A stretch of DNA of 64,000 bases from Halichondria panicea (taxonomy: Eukaryota > Porifera > Demospongiae > Suberitida > Halichondriidae): the NCBI RefSeq assembly GCF_963675165.1, contig NC_087387.1:4614990-4678989 (forward strand), in the 5' to 3' direction. Of this stretch, positions 6,535-29,694 are shown in pieces. Below the pieces are notes generated by a model. The model had not been told where the DNA came from. It worked only from the letters and a program-made list of their open reading frames with translations, and searched no databases. The first letter of the stretch is position 1. The number at the start of each line of letters is the position of its first letter. The position numbers and the translations under genes were made by a program.

Positions 6535-9500
6535 ATGAGCAAGCTATCTTTTCGAGCGAGGGCCCTGGATGCTACCAAGCCTCTACCTATCTACCATGCC
6601 GATGATCTACCGGATTTATCAGACTTCAGCACCATCAACCGGACGGTGCCTCAGATGCCCACCGGGATGGAGAAAGAAGAAGAGTCGGTGAGTGAATGTA
6701 CCTTTGAGCGTCCGCCATTTTTAAAATGGCGGACGAAACATTTGACACTAAACACATTTTTTTAAAGTCTATAGAGTCTCTAGTAGCCTAGAAAGCTTCA
6801 AGTAGGAAGGTATAATCGTGCTTGTGCTCTAGCTGCAGCTTTAGGCTTGTTTTGTCCATGAGGAGAGAGTAAATTTGCAAGAAGGTTCTATTCTTTCTGA
6901 TGTGGGAGGTGTGGTCATTTAACTTAATGTTATTCATACATGCAGCTTTGCAACAATGCTTTACTTTTGCATGAAACAGATCGCTTTATCGGTTTTTATG
7001 AAGGCATACATGCACGTAGTGTATTTATAGTAACTCAGACAAGTTCTTCATGCATATCTTTGTATCCTCCCCAGGAGCGCCACTTGCAGGATGTGATACA
7101 GGCTAAGCAAACTAACAGTGTGAAAAAGAAGCATGTATACATTCCCATCCCTGAGGCGACCATCCCTGTGAAGCACTATGATACGATCAACCAACAAATC
7201 AACAGGGCGCATCAGTATGTCAGAGTGCCAGGTAAGATACACTGTTTAATTTATTGCAGTAACAGTATCTATTCGTAGTGTTATGTTATTTGAATCAAAG
7301 TCCTATATTTCCAGCTTTACTTTGCACATACATGACTGTACTAGTATACATGTACACGTACACGTGATATGTAGTTGGTACCAAGCTGTACAAATGGTCT
7401 TTATCTCTCCCCTCGTGGTTGGTAGCACCCCTTGCCTGTAGCCACAGTTATTGCAAGTAATGGGTGGGGGTGACATTGGTGGTTGCAGAGATCTACTTGA
7501 ACATTCTCCTCTCTAAAGATGAATCACCTTTATATGCTATGATTTTCTCGATGTCATGGCTTAGTGAATATTGTCAAGGCAATTACTGGGTGGGCACATG
7601 TAGTAATTACATGTATATAATTGTACATGTATGCGGGTTTCCCTTCACCATGCATTGTGTGTGCAGCCTAACTAGATCAAGTAGAAATGTGTATACACTG
7701 TGTAATTGATCTAATTCAGACACACATACATGTAGTGTTGCTATAGCAGCGGTGTGGTGGAAAGACTGTTGTTTGCTTTTGGTGAGAGCTATCCCCACAA
7801 TTAGTTTTCGTATCAGTATGGTGTTTGTGTTCATGTGCTGCTCTGTGTATTCAACCCACCCACTCATCCACCCCCAGGGCTCGGACTGGAGGAGGTCCCG
7901 GACTATGACCTTGACTCAGAGGATGAGGAGTGGCTCAACGCTCAGAGCAACGAGAGAGTGAGTCACTGGAACTCTGTGTGTGTGTGTGTACACTATACAT
8001 GTATGTATAATAATAGCAGAGCTATGTGCGTGTGAGTGTGTGTGCGTGCCTTGTACATTATAGCGGGACTGTGTGTGTATAATGTACATAATTATAATTA
8101 TACAAATCCCTGTACATTTTACATGTATGTTTCATGTGCATGATTTTACATAATTATGTACTATTCATTGGACTGTGACTCTGTGAGTATAGGCACACTG
8201 CATAATTGATGTACATGTGAATGCATGTGCATTGTTTATGTGTAGTAAAGTAATGTCAGTTGTGTATTGTGGTATCTGCCTCCCCTAGAAGCTTGCTTAA
8301 ACTCTCTCTCTCTTTCTCTCTTTGTAGCCTCTCTCTCCCACCCACTTTGAGCGTATGATGGACCGTCTGGAGAAGGGCAGTGGGAACACGGTCCTCTCAG
8401 AGAGGGAGGCCCAGGGTCTGCTCAGGGACGATGAGAACCTCGTGTTAGCCGTGTATGACTACTGGCTAGCCAAGAGACTCAGACTGGTGGGTGAGGGGTC
8501 CGGTGGTAGCAGTGGTATAGAGATACATGTAGGCAGTTCAATTCTTGACAAGTGTACACTGTGTAGGTAGCATTTGAGGACTAGTAGGCAGTTCATGGGT
8601 ACACTGCATTGATATGCTACAATACATGTAGGTACATGTACTACAATTAGGTATAATTTAATTATGTGTATGCATTGTTGATAAGCTATGCACTATAATT
8701 ATTATTCACACACATGTACATGTACATATAGTATCTGTGTGTGCTTTATGACTTTGGCTAGTATTGCCTGAATTCCTCTTTCTAATGGCTTGATCTGTTT
8801 ATGATGTTTCGTGTACAGTGTACGTATATTGTCTGTCACAACCACTATTATTAGTCACTGCATGGTCATCATCTCTGTCTCTCTCCAGGGTCGTTCCCTG
8901 ATGCCAGTGGTGAAGCAGGAGGGTCGTGATGGAGGGTCAGGCTCCAACCCATACCTCGCTTTCAGGAAGAGAACAGAGAAGATGCAGACCAGGAAGGTTA
9001 GTGACTGCATGTGATACGTGTATACTAGTACAGTGAAACCTGCCAGTCTATTGTGGTCACCCTATAAGCAGGTCATCCTCATAATACAGCCAGGTTAATG
9101 GGCTCCAGAGTCTCTCCGAAGCATGCATTTGGACCTGTTAACGCCACCCTCTTTATTACAGCCACTGCTGGTCTGCCCAAGGGTGACCACATTCTTATTA
9201 TTATTTCAGTGTACATTTTTATTGATAAATACCTGTTGAATTTTGAGTTGCATTCTGAAGGTGATTGTTATTACAAGGCATATCTTTCCTTCTAGAATCG
9301 TAAGAATGATGAGACAGCCTACATGCAGATGTTGAAATTGAAGAGAGATCTTGAAAAGGCTGTGTAAGTCGATATACATTTTGTACCATATACAACTAAA
9401 GCACCTGTTGTAACTCGAGCTTTCATGGTCTGTACTGCTTTATCATTATCTGTGGTATGCATTACATGTGTACTACTAGCCTCCTTCACTAGCCTCCCCT

Positions 9501-12500
9501 GAAGAGAAGGCCTGCTACTGACTGCTTGCGCATGTGCAACATTATTGGATATTTGTTCCCGTAAAATGTCCTATAATACTGAATTTATCGCGAAAATATT
9601 CTGACAAAGTATTGAAAGTCATACACAGAGCTATTTAGCCAGCTAGCTAGCTAGAGACAAAGCTGTAGTTTTGTTGTACAGCTATGTACAGCTATTTTCT
9701 TTCTGATAGAGCCAGTAGCAGTAGTATAGTAGACTTTCACCAAAGTTAGTATTAGATGGGCGTGGCCTGTCCATTAGGCTATTGTCAGCTTTCACTCCCT
9801 TCAGACGATTGTCATCCACACTATTGCAGGCTGTGGGTCTTTTGTTAGCATAGCAGGCTACGGGTAGCTATCAGCTCTTTCTCAGAGATGGGCTAGAAAC
9901 CTTCAATCGAACTTTCTATCTACTTCCTTCAATCCACTTCCGTTCGTTGTGACGTCTTTGTTTTACTGAGCATACACGTTGTTATCCTGCGTTAGCCGGT
10001 ATCTGGCTAATGGTTAGCGCATGTGCAAGCAGTCGATACCAGGCCCTCTCTTCGAGGAAGAGCGGCCTGGAATCGAGGCTAGTGTACTACATGTGTACTT
10101 GTAATACACTGGTACTCTATTGTTAATGTTGTGTAGGTCACTGTTTGAGTGGGTGAGAGACAGGGAACAGAAGAAACAAGAGCTCGCCAAAATGCAAATG
10201 AACGCCTTCAAAAAAAGGTATGTCTCAAACTTGGTGAGCCTATGCTGTAAATCAAGTTCTGGGCATGCCCAATCGTACAATGTACATGTACTGTATCAAT
10301 TAATGTACATGTACTGTGTGTGCAATAGGGGGCTTCCCTACGTGTATGTTTGGGGAATTTCCCCTCGAACAGTATCCTGTATAAAAATTATGTACATTAT
10401 AATTATACATGTAATTGTATATACCCTAAACAACAACTCTGACTTCTTGTTTATCTTGTACCTCCATGTACTGTACAGGTATCAGCTTCAAGATTGGAGT
10501 GGTAACATCCTCTCATCATTGCAAGCCTCCACCAAGTCCGGTCTGGGTCGACGTAACTCTGACTGGGACAACAGAGCAAGGCTCAAGGTACGACATGTAC
10601 ACCTACTGTACTGATTGATTGATATGTGCCACTAAATGTGGGCTACCAGTAATGTAACTTGATTTTGGATTGGGCAAAAAAAGAATGAACGTTCAGTAGT
10701 GCCTTATTGATAGCTGGATCTGTTGCTGGCCCAAACCTAGCATTCGTACTGTATTTCACTGTGTACATGTACATGCTGCAACCCTGTGCTATGTGTTGAA
10801 CTGTGGTTATGATCCTGTGTCTACAGTTGGAGGCTAGTGGGGACTATGAAGTCCATCACATGGGAGCGTGAGTGACAGTTACACACATGTACATGTATCT
10901 ACTACAGTGCGTGTATTTACACTGTGGTGAAACCTGTCTATTGTGGTCACCCTCTAGAATACAGCCACCCCAAAGTCTCCCCATAGCATGTGTTTGGATG
11001 ATAAAAATAGCGCACAGTACATGTATGTTTCAACCTAAGCCACCTCTGTTAGTGTACGTACATTTACCTGCTGAGTCAGCACTGCCTGGATGTTGAAGTT
11101 CATAGTCTAAGTTCACTCAAACTTGCTGACAATTTTGTACTTGAGCCTGACCAGTTCTACAGTAAATGTACATTGCTTTGTTGTCATCAACACTGTCACC
11201 GTGACGTTTCTGTGTTTCTGTGCTTACAGTGGCAGGAAAAGGAAGAAGAGAAGAAGCAACTACTTTTATACTGAGGTAGGCAATGATCGCATAATTATGT
11301 TTACAATACCAGTACTATGGACGTAGCCCTCACTAACACCCACACCACCACCCTCACAGGTCCACTCAGAGGCACCCCTCACACCCTCCACTCCAGACAA
11401 GGTCCACCGAGACTCCACCCATGATCTCTCGTCAGACAGACTTGAAGACGAGGAGTACGAGGGACTGTTCTCGTTCAAGAGGAAACCGCACGTCAGATAT
11501 CATTCAGTGAGTGGAGATAGAAATATCCGATGCTTACAGTACTTTTATTGTGTGATGTGTTTTTTACTGAGCACTTGGCCATACATGTACATTGTAGATC
11601 GTAATCAAGATCGTACATTCTTATTGTACAATGTAGATGTACATGTAGGTATACGTATCGTTCCTGGGCAGACCAGCATGGTGCATGTAATTACATGTAT
11701 GAGGTGGCTTCGTGGAGACTAGGGTTGTCCATGTTTGTATGCTCTATGTAGTTTTTATTTGTGTACCTGTATTACTCCCCACACACACAGTCTCGCGATC
11801 CCCTCAGTGTATGGCCATGGACAAACGAGGATGCCCCTGACCATCCCTCCAGTAACGAGCCTGATGACAGCGACCTCATGATAATGGACTATGCCCCTTA
11901 CGCCATGTCCCACGCCGCCAGCAGGGAGAGAGCCAGGGGGGCAACTGGGCCTAGGAGAAGGTATCGATTCAGCAGAGCCAGTCTGAGCAGTGGAGGGGTT
12001 GGGCTGACTAGGCGGAGGCTGGGACGAGGAGGGCGGTGAGTACTGGTCTGATATGTATGTACAGTACATGTTTATTGCATTGTGAATGTATTGTTCCTTA
12101 GTAGTTGTTGGTTATGGTGAATCCTTTCTGAACTAAGACCAAGTTTTTGTTAATCCCTAAAGGGCGAATTTCTCCGAACTAAAACTGTAAGCTCTCTCGA
12201 CTCTCGTATACCTTGTAGTGTAAAAAATACACTTACATGTATCATCATGGAGCTGGTCTAAAACGTTAATGATATGTACTGTTCCCGCCATGTGTAGTGT
12301 ACTATGGGATCGTCTCACACGGACTGAGCTCCTCCCCTCTGCCACACCCCCTGCCACACCCACCAAGGGAGAAGCCTCTGAGAGTATGGACACAAGGTAC
12401 GTGTACATGTAGTGTACTACACTGTAGACATTACTGTAGCCTATGCTTAGCTCATCTTGTACTAATACATGTGCATGTGCATGTAGGTAGTCAGTGCAGT

Positions 12501-17636: not shown

Positions 17637-18291
17637 TTAGCAGCCACCACCACCAGTACTACCGCTGCATTTCAGGCTAAAGTATTTCCCTTGAGCTTCT
17701 CTGGTAACATGACTGGAAATTATCTCTGCGCCATTCTTGCAACTTGCAACAACAATGAAATCTTTTGCACATCCTCTGTAGGGATCAGTAAGGAATCGAG
17801 TATGCACCAGTGCCCTGCAAGACTGCTTTCCCTCGCATTTGCTTTTGGCATATGCAGTGCTTCTAACTTGAACATTTTTTCGGAGTGAACCCCTTGCACA
17901 GGAGAGACCATAGTAGGCATAAAGAATCTTGATTCCTATATAAAATAACATAATTATTATAGGAGTTTCGAGATTAACTGAATCAGATACTGCTTATATA
18001 ATGTATGTACTTACCAGCTCCCTGCTTTTCCACTTCTTCCTCTTCTTGTACCACTTTACCCTCCTCTATCTATAATAAAACTTGAAATACAACATGTGGC
18101 AGTGCTAGCTGCATGCACACTTCAAGTATATATACATATAATGAGTTAAATGCTGCATAATTATATGCTCTTACTTCGGACAAGTCCACCTGATTGGCTT
18201 GTAGGTGTGCTAACACTTCATCAATTGCTGCAGCTTTGATGCTGAGTCCGAGCATCATCACCATCACAAGAGTTAGGATGATTGTCTTCAT
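17637..18291 (-). CDS. Secreted SUEL-type lectin-like protein, copy 1
   Basis: Three exons on the minus strand (18291-18175, 18069-18015, 17935-17637) give 156 aa plus TAA. Exon 1 encodes a signal peptide (MKTIILTLVMVMMLGLSIKA) and a short propeptide-like stretch. Exon 2 encodes an acidic linker (VVQEEEEVEKQGAG). Exon 3 encodes the domain: ILYAYYGLSC, SKCEGKQSC, FLTDPYRGCAKDFIVVASC, then a Gly-rich end. The spacing of Cys, the G-x-x-SC motif and DPyxGc.K.f.VvasC match the SUEL / rhamnose- or galactose-binding lectin family, which acts outside the cell on glycans. The first beta strand (LxC) of typical SUEL domains is not obvious. The exon 1 start is set by the signal peptide, 93 nt after a TATA-like box. 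Sugar specificity cannot be read from the sequence. Confidence 0.78.
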
Positions 18292-20286: not shown

Positions 20287-20956
20287 CTACTTCTTTGAGC
20301 AGCCACTACACTTCAGGCTGAAGTATTTCCCTTCTTTGGTAACATAACTGGAAATAATTTCCTTCCCATTTTTACAACTAGCAACAACGATGAAATTCTT
20401 ATGACAGCCTCCATAAGGGTCAGAGAGATATCGATTAGATACCATTCCTCTGCAAGACTGCTTTCCCTCGCATTTGCTCTTGGCGTATGCAGTGCTTCTG
20501 ACTTCAACACTCTTTCGTAGCACACCTTTTGTGCAGGCGAGGCCGTAATAGGCATAGAGAATCTTAATTCCTAACATAAAAATAATTATATGCAAGATAA
20601 GTTGTGACACCATGATAATAATCATTGTGCATGTGTTTAACGAGCTTTTTGTTGATATAGCTGCTGTAAAATATTTTTGTATATTCTTACCAGCTCCCTG
20701 CTTTTCCACTTCTTCATTTTCTTGTACCACTTCACCCTCGTCCATCTATATTATAAATGTGAAGATGGAATCAAGGGGAGGAAACGCTATAAAATTATAT
20801 ACTCAAGTATAATTATACTCTTACTTCCGACATGTCCACCTGATTGGCTTGTAGGTATGCCAGCACTTCATCCATTTCTGCTTCATTAAATTCTGCAGCT
20901 TTGATACTGAGTCCAAGCATCATCACCATCACTAGAGTAAGAACGATCGTCTTCAT
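20287..20956 (-). CDS. Secreted SUEL-type lectin-like protein, copy 2
   Basis: Exons 20956-20825, 20745-20691 and 20570-20287 give 156 aa, the same length as copy 1, with the same intron phases (0 and 1). The signal peptide is MKTIVLTLVMVMMLGLSIKA. The propeptide part is longer by five residues (EFNEAEMDEVLAYLQANQ) and the C-terminus is shorter (LKCSGCSKK). The domain keeps SKCEGKQSC, YLSDPYGGCHKNFIVVASC and the Tyr-rich ILYAYYGLAC. It is expected to be extracellular and glycan-binding like its paralogue. The second intron is 120 nt without a stop, so the frame stays open from 20745 to 20287. Retention of that intron would insert 40 residues including a strongly hydrophobic stretch. Confidence 0.78.
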
Positions 20957-26357: not shown

Positions 26358-29300
26358 ATGAAAGTGCTTTACTTGTCCTGTTGCCTCTACTTCTGGTAAG
26401 TATTGTATACATGTACATAACTTCTGACTAGACTCGGGTGATTAAAATATGTCGAGGTTAGCTTAGGACCTAGAAATATATATATGGACAATTCGATTGA
26501 TAGTAATTCTATTCAGAGAGCAAATTTTTTCACTCTGAAGGTTCCAACTCTTAGGAGCATCCTATTTACAAAGACCAAGGATCAATTTCGCTGGAGAGTT
26601 TAAGGCCGATGTCTCCACTATGAACAACAGAGACGAGAACTATGAACGATCAATGGAGAACGGGGAGGACCTGCAATTGCACAAGTGGTGGAATTGGAAC
26701 CCTGAAGGCACAAGCACTTGGGCAATAATGGACTGTGTAGTAACTTCAGTTGTGTTGGAAAACGGTTTAACCATAAATGACGAAGTTGTTGGCAAGCCGA
26801 TTGTGATTAATCCAGGTAGTTCCCTGCCTAAAATTGTTGATTTTAACTCAGCTAATAAGTTTTCCAGTATCATTTATGGTATGAAGCTAGGTATAAATTG
26901 GAACAGAGATGGAAAATCAAAGAATGCTTTTATTGGAGATTTTATACCGTCACCAGTTACTCACGAGCTATGGACACGTCAAGCAGATACTTCTAAATTT
27001 GCTAATGTAGGTGCTCGTGGTGTTTCTCAGCTTTCTAACGTACAATGGGCTGATCACCTGACTTCCGAAGCTTTAAACAATTTAAAAATACTTACGAATA
27101 GAGACAAAGTAAATGGCTACTCTCTTTCAATCATGCTTGCACTATTTGACTACTCTACAGATAAAGAAGAAAGGCTTTTTTATGGCAAGCTAGTTGGAAG
27201 TATTGGAGTCACTGAACTGGGAGAGTTTTTGGTGTTTCCTGTAAACAGAGTTCTAATGTTTACAGAGAATCCTCCATTACCAGTACCTTACCAGAGTCAA
27301 CTGTGTGTGTACAATTGGACTAATACTGCTTACTTTGATATCTTTGCCTCGAGAATGACTATTGATTTAAGTAACTCTCTTGCTTTGAACGTCAATGGTG
27401 AAGTATGCCATTTTTATCGTTACTATGCTGGCGTTTTGACAGACCAGCAAACCGTTGAAATTTTAGGTGAGATTCCATACATGGAGAAAAACTGGTACAG
27501 GAAAACAAGTGGCATTCAAGATTTCGATCTCGCAAGTCCTCATTTAGAGCGTGCTAAAAATCATCAAATTGTCGTTGTTGTCTTCAAAGAAGAGCCCTCG
27601 GAAATTAACCGTGTAAGATTTCCACTCTGTGAAAACTCCCTCACATATGGTATTGATAGTTGCTTGTACATTATTCTAAGAGAAGCTACTTACTTTATAC
27701 ATCCAATTAGCAGATACATCCTTCGACTAGAGAAAGGAGATTCGGTTCAAGTTAATTTGAAAGTGAAACATTACGGAAGTCAACCAAGCAAGCACATACC
27801 CGTCACACTTTGTGATAGCAGTCGCAGTGTACCTGCAACAAAATCAGATATCGAGTTTCAGAGCACACAAATAACAAACGATGCTGGCATTGCAACGTTC
27901 ACTTTTGTTGCTGGTGATGTTGGAAGTCCTAGGAAAGGTATCGACGGCCAACTGTTCAAATTTAACTATTGTGTATGCGAAGACTGTGAGACTGTGAATT
28001 GCTCTCAGTGTGAAGTGAAGGGTGGTAATCAAATTGTATTTCTGGTATGGAGTGATATTAAATATCAAATGCCGTATTATTGGGACACACACATTAAACC
28101 TATTTTCACTCAATATCAAAACCTTTATCCATCGATGAGCAAGATTATCAAACTAGGTGATTATGATGATGTCACTAAGCCTCTAAATATCGACTTGATT
28201 CTGTTTTCAATGTCTTTAGATCTCAATCACCCCAGCTACATGCCAGTGACGAGAGATCTTTCCCCAGCAAAAATAGATATGATAATCAAATGGTTGAAGA
28301 CTCCCGATCACCCCCGTAACCGAGAAGACGACAAGTTGTACGAATCACCTCCATTCTGCCATCAAACATACTTGTATAACGAAGAGAAACAAAAAATGAA
28401 AGAAGCTAGAATACAAATGGAATACTCATTTCCATGGATGAAACAATACCGTTCCAGCGGGTACATGAGAATACTTTTAGGTGGAACAGAACATTTTCTA
28501 CCAACACTTTCAGATTCTCATGTAACTCGTTCTTTTTTCGATGTTGCCATAGTTACACTGCCAACTTATGACAGGTTTCCGAATCATGTCAGTCCAGGTT
28601 ACTCTCATCTTCTCTCCGCCATTTTAAACCTAGATAGAAAACCACTACCAAATTGGTACACAAATCACTGCTCCAAACAATTGCTCAAAGAGATGTTACA
28701 GTTAGCCGTACAGTTAGAATTCTCTACCATTCCACCGTACTTGACAGCTCTTTACTCTATCAAGGATGGCTACAATCAAGAGGCATACGAAATCATTCGC
28801 TCTGTAGTCATGCAAGAAATGCTTCACCTGGCACAAGCGGCCAACCTGCTGATTGCTATCGGTGGACGGCCAATAATAGATAGTGCACAGGCTGTCCCAT
28901 CTTATCCCGGGAAGATACCGGGAGGAGTGTTACCTGGGCTAAATATAACACTACAGAAAGCATCTCCCAAGTATATAGCTGATGTGTTCATGATGATAGA
29001 ATTCCCTGACAACATCATTTACAAGGACCACCATACAGAAAAAGGAATTGAAACTCACGTACTTACAATTGGAAAGCTTTACAAACGTATACAAGAGTGT
29101 ATGGTTGAAAAAGAAAGAGACAATTTGTTCAAAACAGAAGTCAAGCAGCTCTCATGGCCATGGAAAGAACACGAAGAAGGTATTAAGCTGACGACTGTGA
29201 CCAATATAGAAGAAGCGATAGAGGCCATAAATATGATAATTGAGGAGGGAGAAGGAACTCCACAAAGAGACCCAACCTACTTGAAAACATCAGAGCTTGC

Positions 29301-29694
29301 TCACTTCTTCAAGTTTGAAACGCTCGCCTGCAAACATCATTTGAGAGTCCTCCATGATAACGATCAGTACATGTATGATTTCCGTGGTAAAAAGATAGAG
29401 TTCACATCTGAAGGTGTGTGGCCAATGAGAAATAACCCATCGTCTAAAACTATCCCCAGAAAATCACTTGCATACCGAGAGACTAAAATATTTCATAGCT
29501 TGTATCGTTCTCTATTGACTTTATTTCAAGAATCATTTGATGGACGACCTGACGCTATCAAAGAGGCTGTTCCAATCATGGAAGCAATGCAGCTACAAGC
29601 AAAGAAGCTGATGACTATGGAAGTACCCTCTAAACCTGGTCACCCAAAACAAACTTATGGTCCAACATTTGAATATATAATAGCGAAATTGTAA
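26358..29694 (+). CDS. Secreted VioB/RebD-like ferritin-domain protein
   Basis: Two exons (26358-26395 and 26541-29694, phase 2) give 1,063 aa. Exon 1 plus the first codons of exon 2 form a signal peptide (MKVLYLSCCLYFWFQLLGA), directly followed by RPRINFAGEFKADVSTMNN. That matches the RIHFxGxxxANxxTxNN start of bacterial VioB (violacein) and RebD (rebeccamycin), which couple two imino-indolepyruvate molecules. Other shared landmarks are WNWNPEGTSTW, LYPSMSKIIKLGD, SYMPVTRDLSPAKIDMIIKWL (near residues 577-597) and a C-terminal ferritin-like domain from about residue 727. That domain has QLEFST (E739), MQEMLHL (E772, H775) and FKFETLACKHH (E939, H945). A beta-rich Ig-like stretch (around 415-495) and a CxxC-rich loop lie in the middle. 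Length is close to the roughly 1,000 aa of VioB and RebD. The annotated frame can also start at Met40, but then the conserved N-terminus would be lost. Substrate is unknown; no partner oxidase (VioA/RebO type) is nearby. Confidence 0.85.

Follow-up and report, generated by a model that had tools for sequence, protein, structure and literature searches.

A ferritin-like protein family of the sponge Halichondria panicea, predicted to be secreted and related to a bacterial gene pair

Introduction

What is a gene that recalls bacterial pigment enzymes doing in the genome of a sponge, and where did it come from? The question is raised by a stretch of 64,000 nucleotides of Halichondria panicea (contig NC_087387.1, positions 4,614,990 to 4,678,989; the window in what follows), where a sequence-only reading had recognized a secreted animal homologue of VioB and RebD, acquired from bacteria, with a possible role in extracellular chemistry or defence. 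VioB and RebD/StaD are located in the cytoplasm, and the chemical defence of animals is often credited to their symbionts. In the open-licence literature of PMC, no animal VioB-like gene was found among the matches listed, judging by titles and the start of abstracts. We consider here the structure of the gene, its family, its kin, its origin and, more tentatively, what it could be for.

The gene and its leader exon

The gene consists of two exons separated by a short intron (Table 1). The exon coordinates and the translation, as they had been read beforehand, match the DNA exactly, and the spliced product is 1,063 amino acids long. It had also been proposed that the intron, and a hydrophobic leader lying on its own exon, were additions to an older gene, and comparison of the copies present in the genome (see below) bears this out. 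In p2, the closest paralogue, the 38-nt exon and its GTAAGT donor have been kept, and the intron has diverged. The splice acceptor has the same place and the same phase in all eight copies, immediately 5′ of the conserved PRINF. A strict scan, asking for a GTAAGT donor after G, in phase 2, a basic residue near the start and a hydrophobic 12-mer, criteria chosen after an earlier look at the upstream exons, found exon 1 upstream of five of the eight copies, as against none of 600 random 3.5-kb window stretches. The five leaders, assessed as such from hydropathy alone, read MKVLYLSCCLYFW, MKVFYLSCCLCLW, MKTSTHWLCLFFFW, MKTSTHWWLCLFICW and MKTSTPWLYLFIIW; with the strict criteria exon 1 was not found in the three other copies, where there are weaker candidates. 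After the leader comes ASYLQRPRINF, which the A2 alignment matches to the first residues of the bacterial N protein discussed below, M-SYLxxPRxxF, so that the leader appears to have been placed directly 5′ of the ancestral start. Splicing and secretion of the gene product are supported by this comparison of sequences.

Table 1. Position of the gene's features in the window
Feature	Positions	Strand	Remarks
Exon 1, leader MKVLYLSCCLYF and split Trp codon	26358..26395	+	phase-2 donor GTAAGT; matching exon in p2, also upstream of p3, p4 and p5
Intron, GT-AG, 145 nt, phase 2	26396..26540	+	GTAAGT...CTGAAG; acceptor position common to the eight copies
Exon 2, entire predicted mature protein	26541..29694	+	ends in a TAA stop
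N-half, exon-2 residues 6-590	26557..28311	+	homologous to the bacterial N gene starting MSYLxxPRxxF (animal N-half HMM, A2 alignment)
Predicted Ig-like beta domain, exon-2 residues ~382-505	27685..28056	+	Ig-like fold class
Family motif SYMPVTRDLSPAKIDMIIKWL	28234..28296	+	closes the N-half; VioB counterpart aligned
Low-confidence linker between the halves, ~114 aa	28312..28653	+	A2 columns 701-815; pLDDT mostly <50
Ferritin-like domain, exon-2 residues 707-1044	28660..29673	+	
E739 (exon-2 E726), candidate metal ligand of helix A	28717..28719	+	invariant 8/8; also in the bacterial rows shown and in VioB/RebD
E772...H775 (exon-2 E759, H762), ExxH of helix B, candidate ligands	28816..28827	+	invariant 8/8
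E914 and E917 (exon-2 E901, E904), E-x-GEG motif	29242..29253	+	invariant 8/8; motif in VioB/RebD
H934 (exon-2 H921), (A/S)H(F/Y) motif	29302..29304	+	invariant 8/8; VioB/RebD counterpart

An eight-copy family in animal chromosomes

The gene described earlier is not a lone gene but belongs to a family of eight. A six-frame search of the 131-Mb assembly (39 contigs) returned eight full-length copies, two each on contigs C11 (which holds the window copy), C3 and C14, and one each on C6 and C1, the other seven being 45-87% identical to the window copy. Every copy is one long exon, devoid of internal stops, in which a single reading frame carries both halves of the protein, and not two separate genes. 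The close pairs are under purifying selection, with dN/dS values of 0.28, 0.30, 0.26 and 0.33 for the four that were compared; one distant pair gave 0.16, with saturated dS. Besides the full-length copies, partial extra ones lie next to two paralogues, at C6:2273561-2273731 (minus strand) and C11:5090058-5090159 (plus strand), one of them with an internal stop.

Wnt genes are a mark of animals. Exons of this family were met on C3, C6 and C12, and in none of 14 control genomes, which add little. Because C3 and C6 hold both Wnt exons and copies of the gene, the family sits in animal chromosomes. For COX1, the genome yielded a single short nuclear fragment, with two in-frame TGA codons. Bacterial contamination is ruled out by the spread of the eight copies over C1, C3, C6, C11 and C14, with Wnt exons on two of these contigs.

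Domains, candidate ligands and cysteines

The landmarks on which the comparison with VioB had been built, namely a RINFxGxF start (here RINFAGEF), the motif SYMPVTRDLSPAKIDMIIKWL and a ferritin-like C-terminus, are all present. The C-terminal domain matches PF12902 (Ferritin-like) with 179.3 bits (E 1.3e-52), the Pfam gathering cut-off being 22.3 bits, and all eight genomic copies exceed this cut-off. The predicted structure, of moderate quality (mean pLDDT 67.5), has a ferritin-like helical fold, matched by PDB 3hl1 (CC_0557); VioB and RebD are absent among the 50 structure matches listed, which is uninformative on fold. The linker that separates the two halves is missing from the fused Streptomyces proteins discussed below (A2 alignment). 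Five residues had been put forward as a metal or haem site. Three of them, E739, E772 and H775, are indeed invariant in the family, whereas E939 and H945, found in six of the eight animal copies and without conservation among the bacterial rows, were discarded as ligands; E914, E917 and H934 are the conserved candidates of the second half.

Ten cysteines are invariant in the eight animal rows and nearly absent from the 17 bacterial rows aligned with them (A2): one of the sites holds a cysteine also in both fused Streptomyces rows, and another in two single-domain rows of Actinomadura. Several of the sites, the linker among them, face gaps in the bacterial rows and not substitutions. In total, the animal proteins have 15-21 cysteines, the paired or fused bacterial proteins 2-10 and the VioB/RebD-like ones 9-14. 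The animal-fixed set fits an oxidizing extracellular setting, and the extracellular role that had been suggested is plausible. N-glycosylation was also considered as evidence of secretion, and set aside, N-linked sequons not being enriched.

Such features might also be understood without any catalysis. The ferritin-like domain would then store or sequester iron, while the other half, with its Ig-like fold class at residues 382-505, would be adhesive or would recognize microbes; eight divergent copies are reminiscent of a recognition family. This seems decidedly unlikely to us, however, as the ligand motif is invariant in the eight copies and common with the catalytic VioB and RebD, and as the close pairs show the purifying selection noted above.

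Remote kinship to VioB and RebD

It remains to be seen how far the likeness to VioB and RebD goes. Profile-profile alignment (hhalign) gives a probability of 98.7% (E 4e-16) over 868 columns at 19% identity, with the inspected alignment covering the N-half, and the ligand motif of the ferritin-like domain is common to the animal copies and to VioB and RebD. The collinearity over the full length that had been claimed therefore stands, and by these profiles VioB and RebD are true full-length kin, but remote: the TIGR04492 model of VioB gives 17.5 bits only, as against an equivalog cut-off of 1250. Taken the other way round, a model of the animal N-half gives 31.9 bits to the VioB of Chromobacterium subtsugae and at most 17.0 to RebD-like proteins of Streptomyces, and a model of the C-half 10.1 and at most 11.0, respectively, where RebD-like means 44-50% C-half identity to VioB, not assayed genes. 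With Pfam, no L-tryptophan oxidase of the VioA/RebO type appears among eight window ORFs. As for cofactors, VioB is reported with haem b in a passage of PMC9705886, and StaD is termed a hemoprotein in the title of a cited reference.

A bacterial gene pair as closer kin

Comparison of the two halves points elsewhere in bacteria: the closer kin is a pair made of an N-half gene and of a gene for a PF12902 ferritin-like protein, not VioB or RebD. Both halves are present at 17 bacterial loci, as two neighbouring genes in 15 of them and as one 946-aa frame in two Streptomyces. Scored with the animal half models, these loci reach 152-242 bits for the N-half and 164-220 bits for the C-half, and what counts here is the contrast with the VioB/RebD scores, because the choice of the loci rests partly on matches to the animal halves. 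The homology first proposed is thus retained, in a weak form, while the assignment to the VioB/RebD family gives way to these nearer relatives. A first scan of genome contigs had yielded 14 loci. In a plasmid collection, eight of 165 records matched over at least 80%; the Aureibacter N gene recovers the same eight, and a ferritin-like gene adjoins in every one (the Mycetohabitans records H7 and H8 lie outside the loci examined). Viral contigs contained 86 pattern-matching stretches, none of which encodes a relative.

The bacterial pair has the same halves in the same order, with some 26-35% identity, the same SYLxxPRxxF start and the same ligand motif. It is known from Aureibacter (WP_309940633/WP_309940635), Mycetohabitans, Chromobacterium and Gloeothece, among others, under the annotations 'hypothetical protein' and 'ferritin-like protein', with variants such as the fused Streptomyces form (L019, L022) and the Azospirillum pair, which comes without the ebo genes discussed below. 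The animal form differs from it by its single chain, its long linker, its leader exon and intron and its ten fixed cysteines. Single-domain PF12902 proteins, such as that of PDB 3hl1 (CC_0557) or those that adjoin LodA genes, have no leader exon, and the N-half is unmatched in the singles examined. In Gloeothece, a second and divergent N-half gene (L033:2899-4935, minus strand; 52 bits) sits beside a 443-aa protein that has no Pfam match.

These scores bear directly on the most literal interpretation of the likeness, that of a secreted bis-indole synthase of VioB/RebD type, which would dimerize an indole-pyruvate imine into a product like chromopyrrolic acid. Full-length profile homology and the common ferritin-like motif speak for it. 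Against it stand the wide gap to the VioB cut-off, the low scores of VioB and RebD-like proteins with the animal models when the pairs score so high, and the fact that VioB/RebD rows form a clade of their own (see the next section), and we hold this role to be very improbable.

Phylogeny and origin

In a full-length tree of 35 rows, comprising 10 of the 13 RebD-like loci L060-L072 (L063, in a wrong frame, and L023, a near copy of L021, were left out), the animal rows form one clade (100/100), and VioB and the 10 RebD-like rows form a separate one (100/100). The animal rows group with the pairs, the nearest being the Azospirillum pair L088 (91/78), and not inside the VioB/RebD clade. The AU test does not reject a sister position that keeps animal and VioB/RebD rows together (p 0.322), in which the animal branch is in effect the first to depart, outside the pairs. 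A second tree was built from the C-half, with 48 rows that include 19 single-domain proteins chosen from a larger set, and without L031, L088, L089, L091, VioB and L066, owing to an over-strict motif filter. There the animal rows nest with the pairs (97/96) within a bacterial clade (99/96), next to L076 and to two LodA-adjacent single-domain proteins of Actinomadura, L025 and L027 (88/95), in a tree for which the program warns of long branches. Placing the animals outside all sampled bacteria other than VioB/RebD costs 13.6 log units (AU p 0.133). In neither tree are the rows nearest the animal branch linked to ebo genes.

It might be argued that the gene was inherited vertically from an ancient eukaryote and lost in most lineages. 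The animal stem is long, and both AU tests leave room for a basal animal branch; moreover, sections of the literature report PF12902 in fungi (PMC4417212) and in vesicle proteins of schistosomes, where ordinary ferritins may be meant (PMC7563238). The supports of the C-half tree nevertheless put the animal branch among bacteria, and the one long exon is collinear with the bacterial genes, so that vertical descent appears rather improbable. Transfer from bacteria, as was first proposed, is the better reading, favoured by the nested position but not proven, the AU tests allowing a basal one and the animal rows having been compared with bacterial rows only.

The ebo gene context

Six Ebo families were sought around the pair or fused loci with queries from Aureibacter and Mycetohabitans, the Aureibacter set having been checked by NCBIfam, and ebo genes adjoin 10 of the 17 pair or fused loci. 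Five or six families accompany nine of these, namely five in Chromobacterium (L017, L018, L020, L021, L023), two in Streptomyces (L019, L022; on the opposite strand, some matches being weak), and those of Aureibacter (L032) and Mycetohabitans (L034), both of which are the sources of the queries; Gloeothece (L033) has two. These associations are not independent events, because five of the 17 loci come from Chromobacterium. Ebo genes are absent from the examined stretch at L024, L031, L088, L089, L090, L091 (on a contig of 7.3 kb) and L092 (close to the end of its contig), as well as at the five C-half-only loci L025-L029, with L028 cut short on its downstream side. At L017 the order, on one strand, is N gene, ferritin-like gene, eboD, E, C, A, B and F. 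Chromobacterium subtsugae combines three versions: VioB (L036), a pair with the full ebo cluster (L018) and a second pair that lacks ebo genes in the examined stretch (L092).

Three of the six families, EboE, EboF and EboA, were searched for in the H. panicea genome and returned no match, with a weak control signal, in one genome only, for EboE, no control for EboF and a silent control for EboA. In Nostoc, a passage of PMC6282210 holds the ebo genes responsible for the export of scytonemin intermediates, and describes the EDB cluster, which makes Pseudomonas fluorescens NZI7 distasteful to Caenorhabditis elegans, as including a full ebo cluster; expressed in Escherichia coli, EDB leads to tryptophan-derived indoles that moderately repel C. 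elegans, according to part of a review (PMC9655573). The EDB cluster has in common with the surroundings of many bacterial pairs the ebo genes that flank them (PMC6282210, PMC9655573). As for eboF alone, a section of PMC5133447 that names no animal describes its acquisition by several groups of algae and by a rhizarian. The word ferritin is missing from PMC6282210, PMC5133447 and PMC6092422.

A proposed function

We can tentatively understand the gene as belonging to a secreted, single-chain animal family of bacterial derivation, comprising iron- or haem-dependent oxidative enzymes of amino-acid-derived chemistry and probably engaged in chemical defence, a proposal to which we grant a little less than an even chance. 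The sequences directly show the gene structure, the paralogues, the homology and the ligand motif, and their comparison lends support to splicing, secretion and a bacterial origin, while the chemistry, the partner and the ecological role are what we infer. A secreted oxidative enzyme acting on amines derived from amino acids is the most economical explanation because, in VioA/VioB and RebO/RebD, imines made by an amino-acid oxidase are coupled (described in parts of PMC9705886 and PMC3158105), because other PF12902 proteins adjoin amino-acid oxidases of the LodA type, and because many pairs adjoin ebo genes, which are connected with the export of indoles and with defence against grazing. Two observations weigh against it: the rows closest to the animal branch in the trees have no ebo link, and the three Ebo searches of the sponge genome came back empty, with a control signal for EboE alone.

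The following scenario may then be proposed. An ancestor would have acquired the two-gene unit from a bacterium; its halves would have been joined through the long linker; an intron and a signal-peptide exon would have come to lie directly before the old start, M-SYLxxPRxxF becoming ASYLQRPRINF; the fixed cysteines would have been gained, and the gene duplicated thereafter. The four-helix ferritin-like domain would bind iron, at a two-metal site made of E739, E772, H775, E914 or E917, and H934, unless its cofactor is haem. Dioxygen or peroxide would be used to couple or oxidize imines or oxo acids from amino acids, which a separate amino-acid oxidase would supply, the beta-rich N-half shaping the site for the substrate or for a partner. 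The product would act outside the cells, most plausibly in chemical defence.

The LodA connection might be taken further, the animal protein then being secreted to work with a quinoprotein amino-acid oxidase of the LodA type, whose peroxide it would remove or use, or whose maturation it would help, as part of an antimicrobial peroxide chemistry. In Actinomadura (L025, L027) the gene of a LodA-type amino-acid oxidase (9049-11304, plus strand) lies beside that of the single-domain PF12902 protein; one of the ten cysteines of the animals is present in these two rows, which group, with L076, with the animal branch in the C-half tree; and ferritin-like genes are described near lodA-like genes in fungi as well (a section of PMC4417212). 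Yet L025 and L027 have no N-half match at E 1e-3, and long branches may be falsely joined in that tree, which makes this partnership unlikely.

Within the oxidative-enzyme proposal itself, a more specific and more daring version can be entertained: the animal would have co-opted from bacteria an oxidative coupling enzyme of the ebo-associated kind, secreted it and brought it to eight copies, so that alkaloids derived from amino acids, indoles for example, are made or finished outside the cells as a defence. The enzyme would then represent a branch of the VioB/RebD superfamily with chemistry uncharacterized even in bacteria. This is conceivable, although we would not expect it to hold in this precise form. 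A nuclear, multi-copy secreted family with natural-product kin in bacteria would nevertheless offer a directly testable route to defence encoded by the animal, and the bacterial pair, where it lies beside an ebo cluster, could supply an oxidative step in the biosynthesis of the products of such clusters.

Other features of the window

Elsewhere in the window, two similar lectin-like exons are found on the minus strand, at 17640-17993 and 20290-20745, the second matching SUEL_Lectin (E 4e-4) under the Pfam cut-off. Further along, again on the minus strand, repeated similar exons between 35000 and 61200 look like those of MFS sugar transporter genes in tandem; one of the exons passes Pfam Sugar_tr (2.6e-9).
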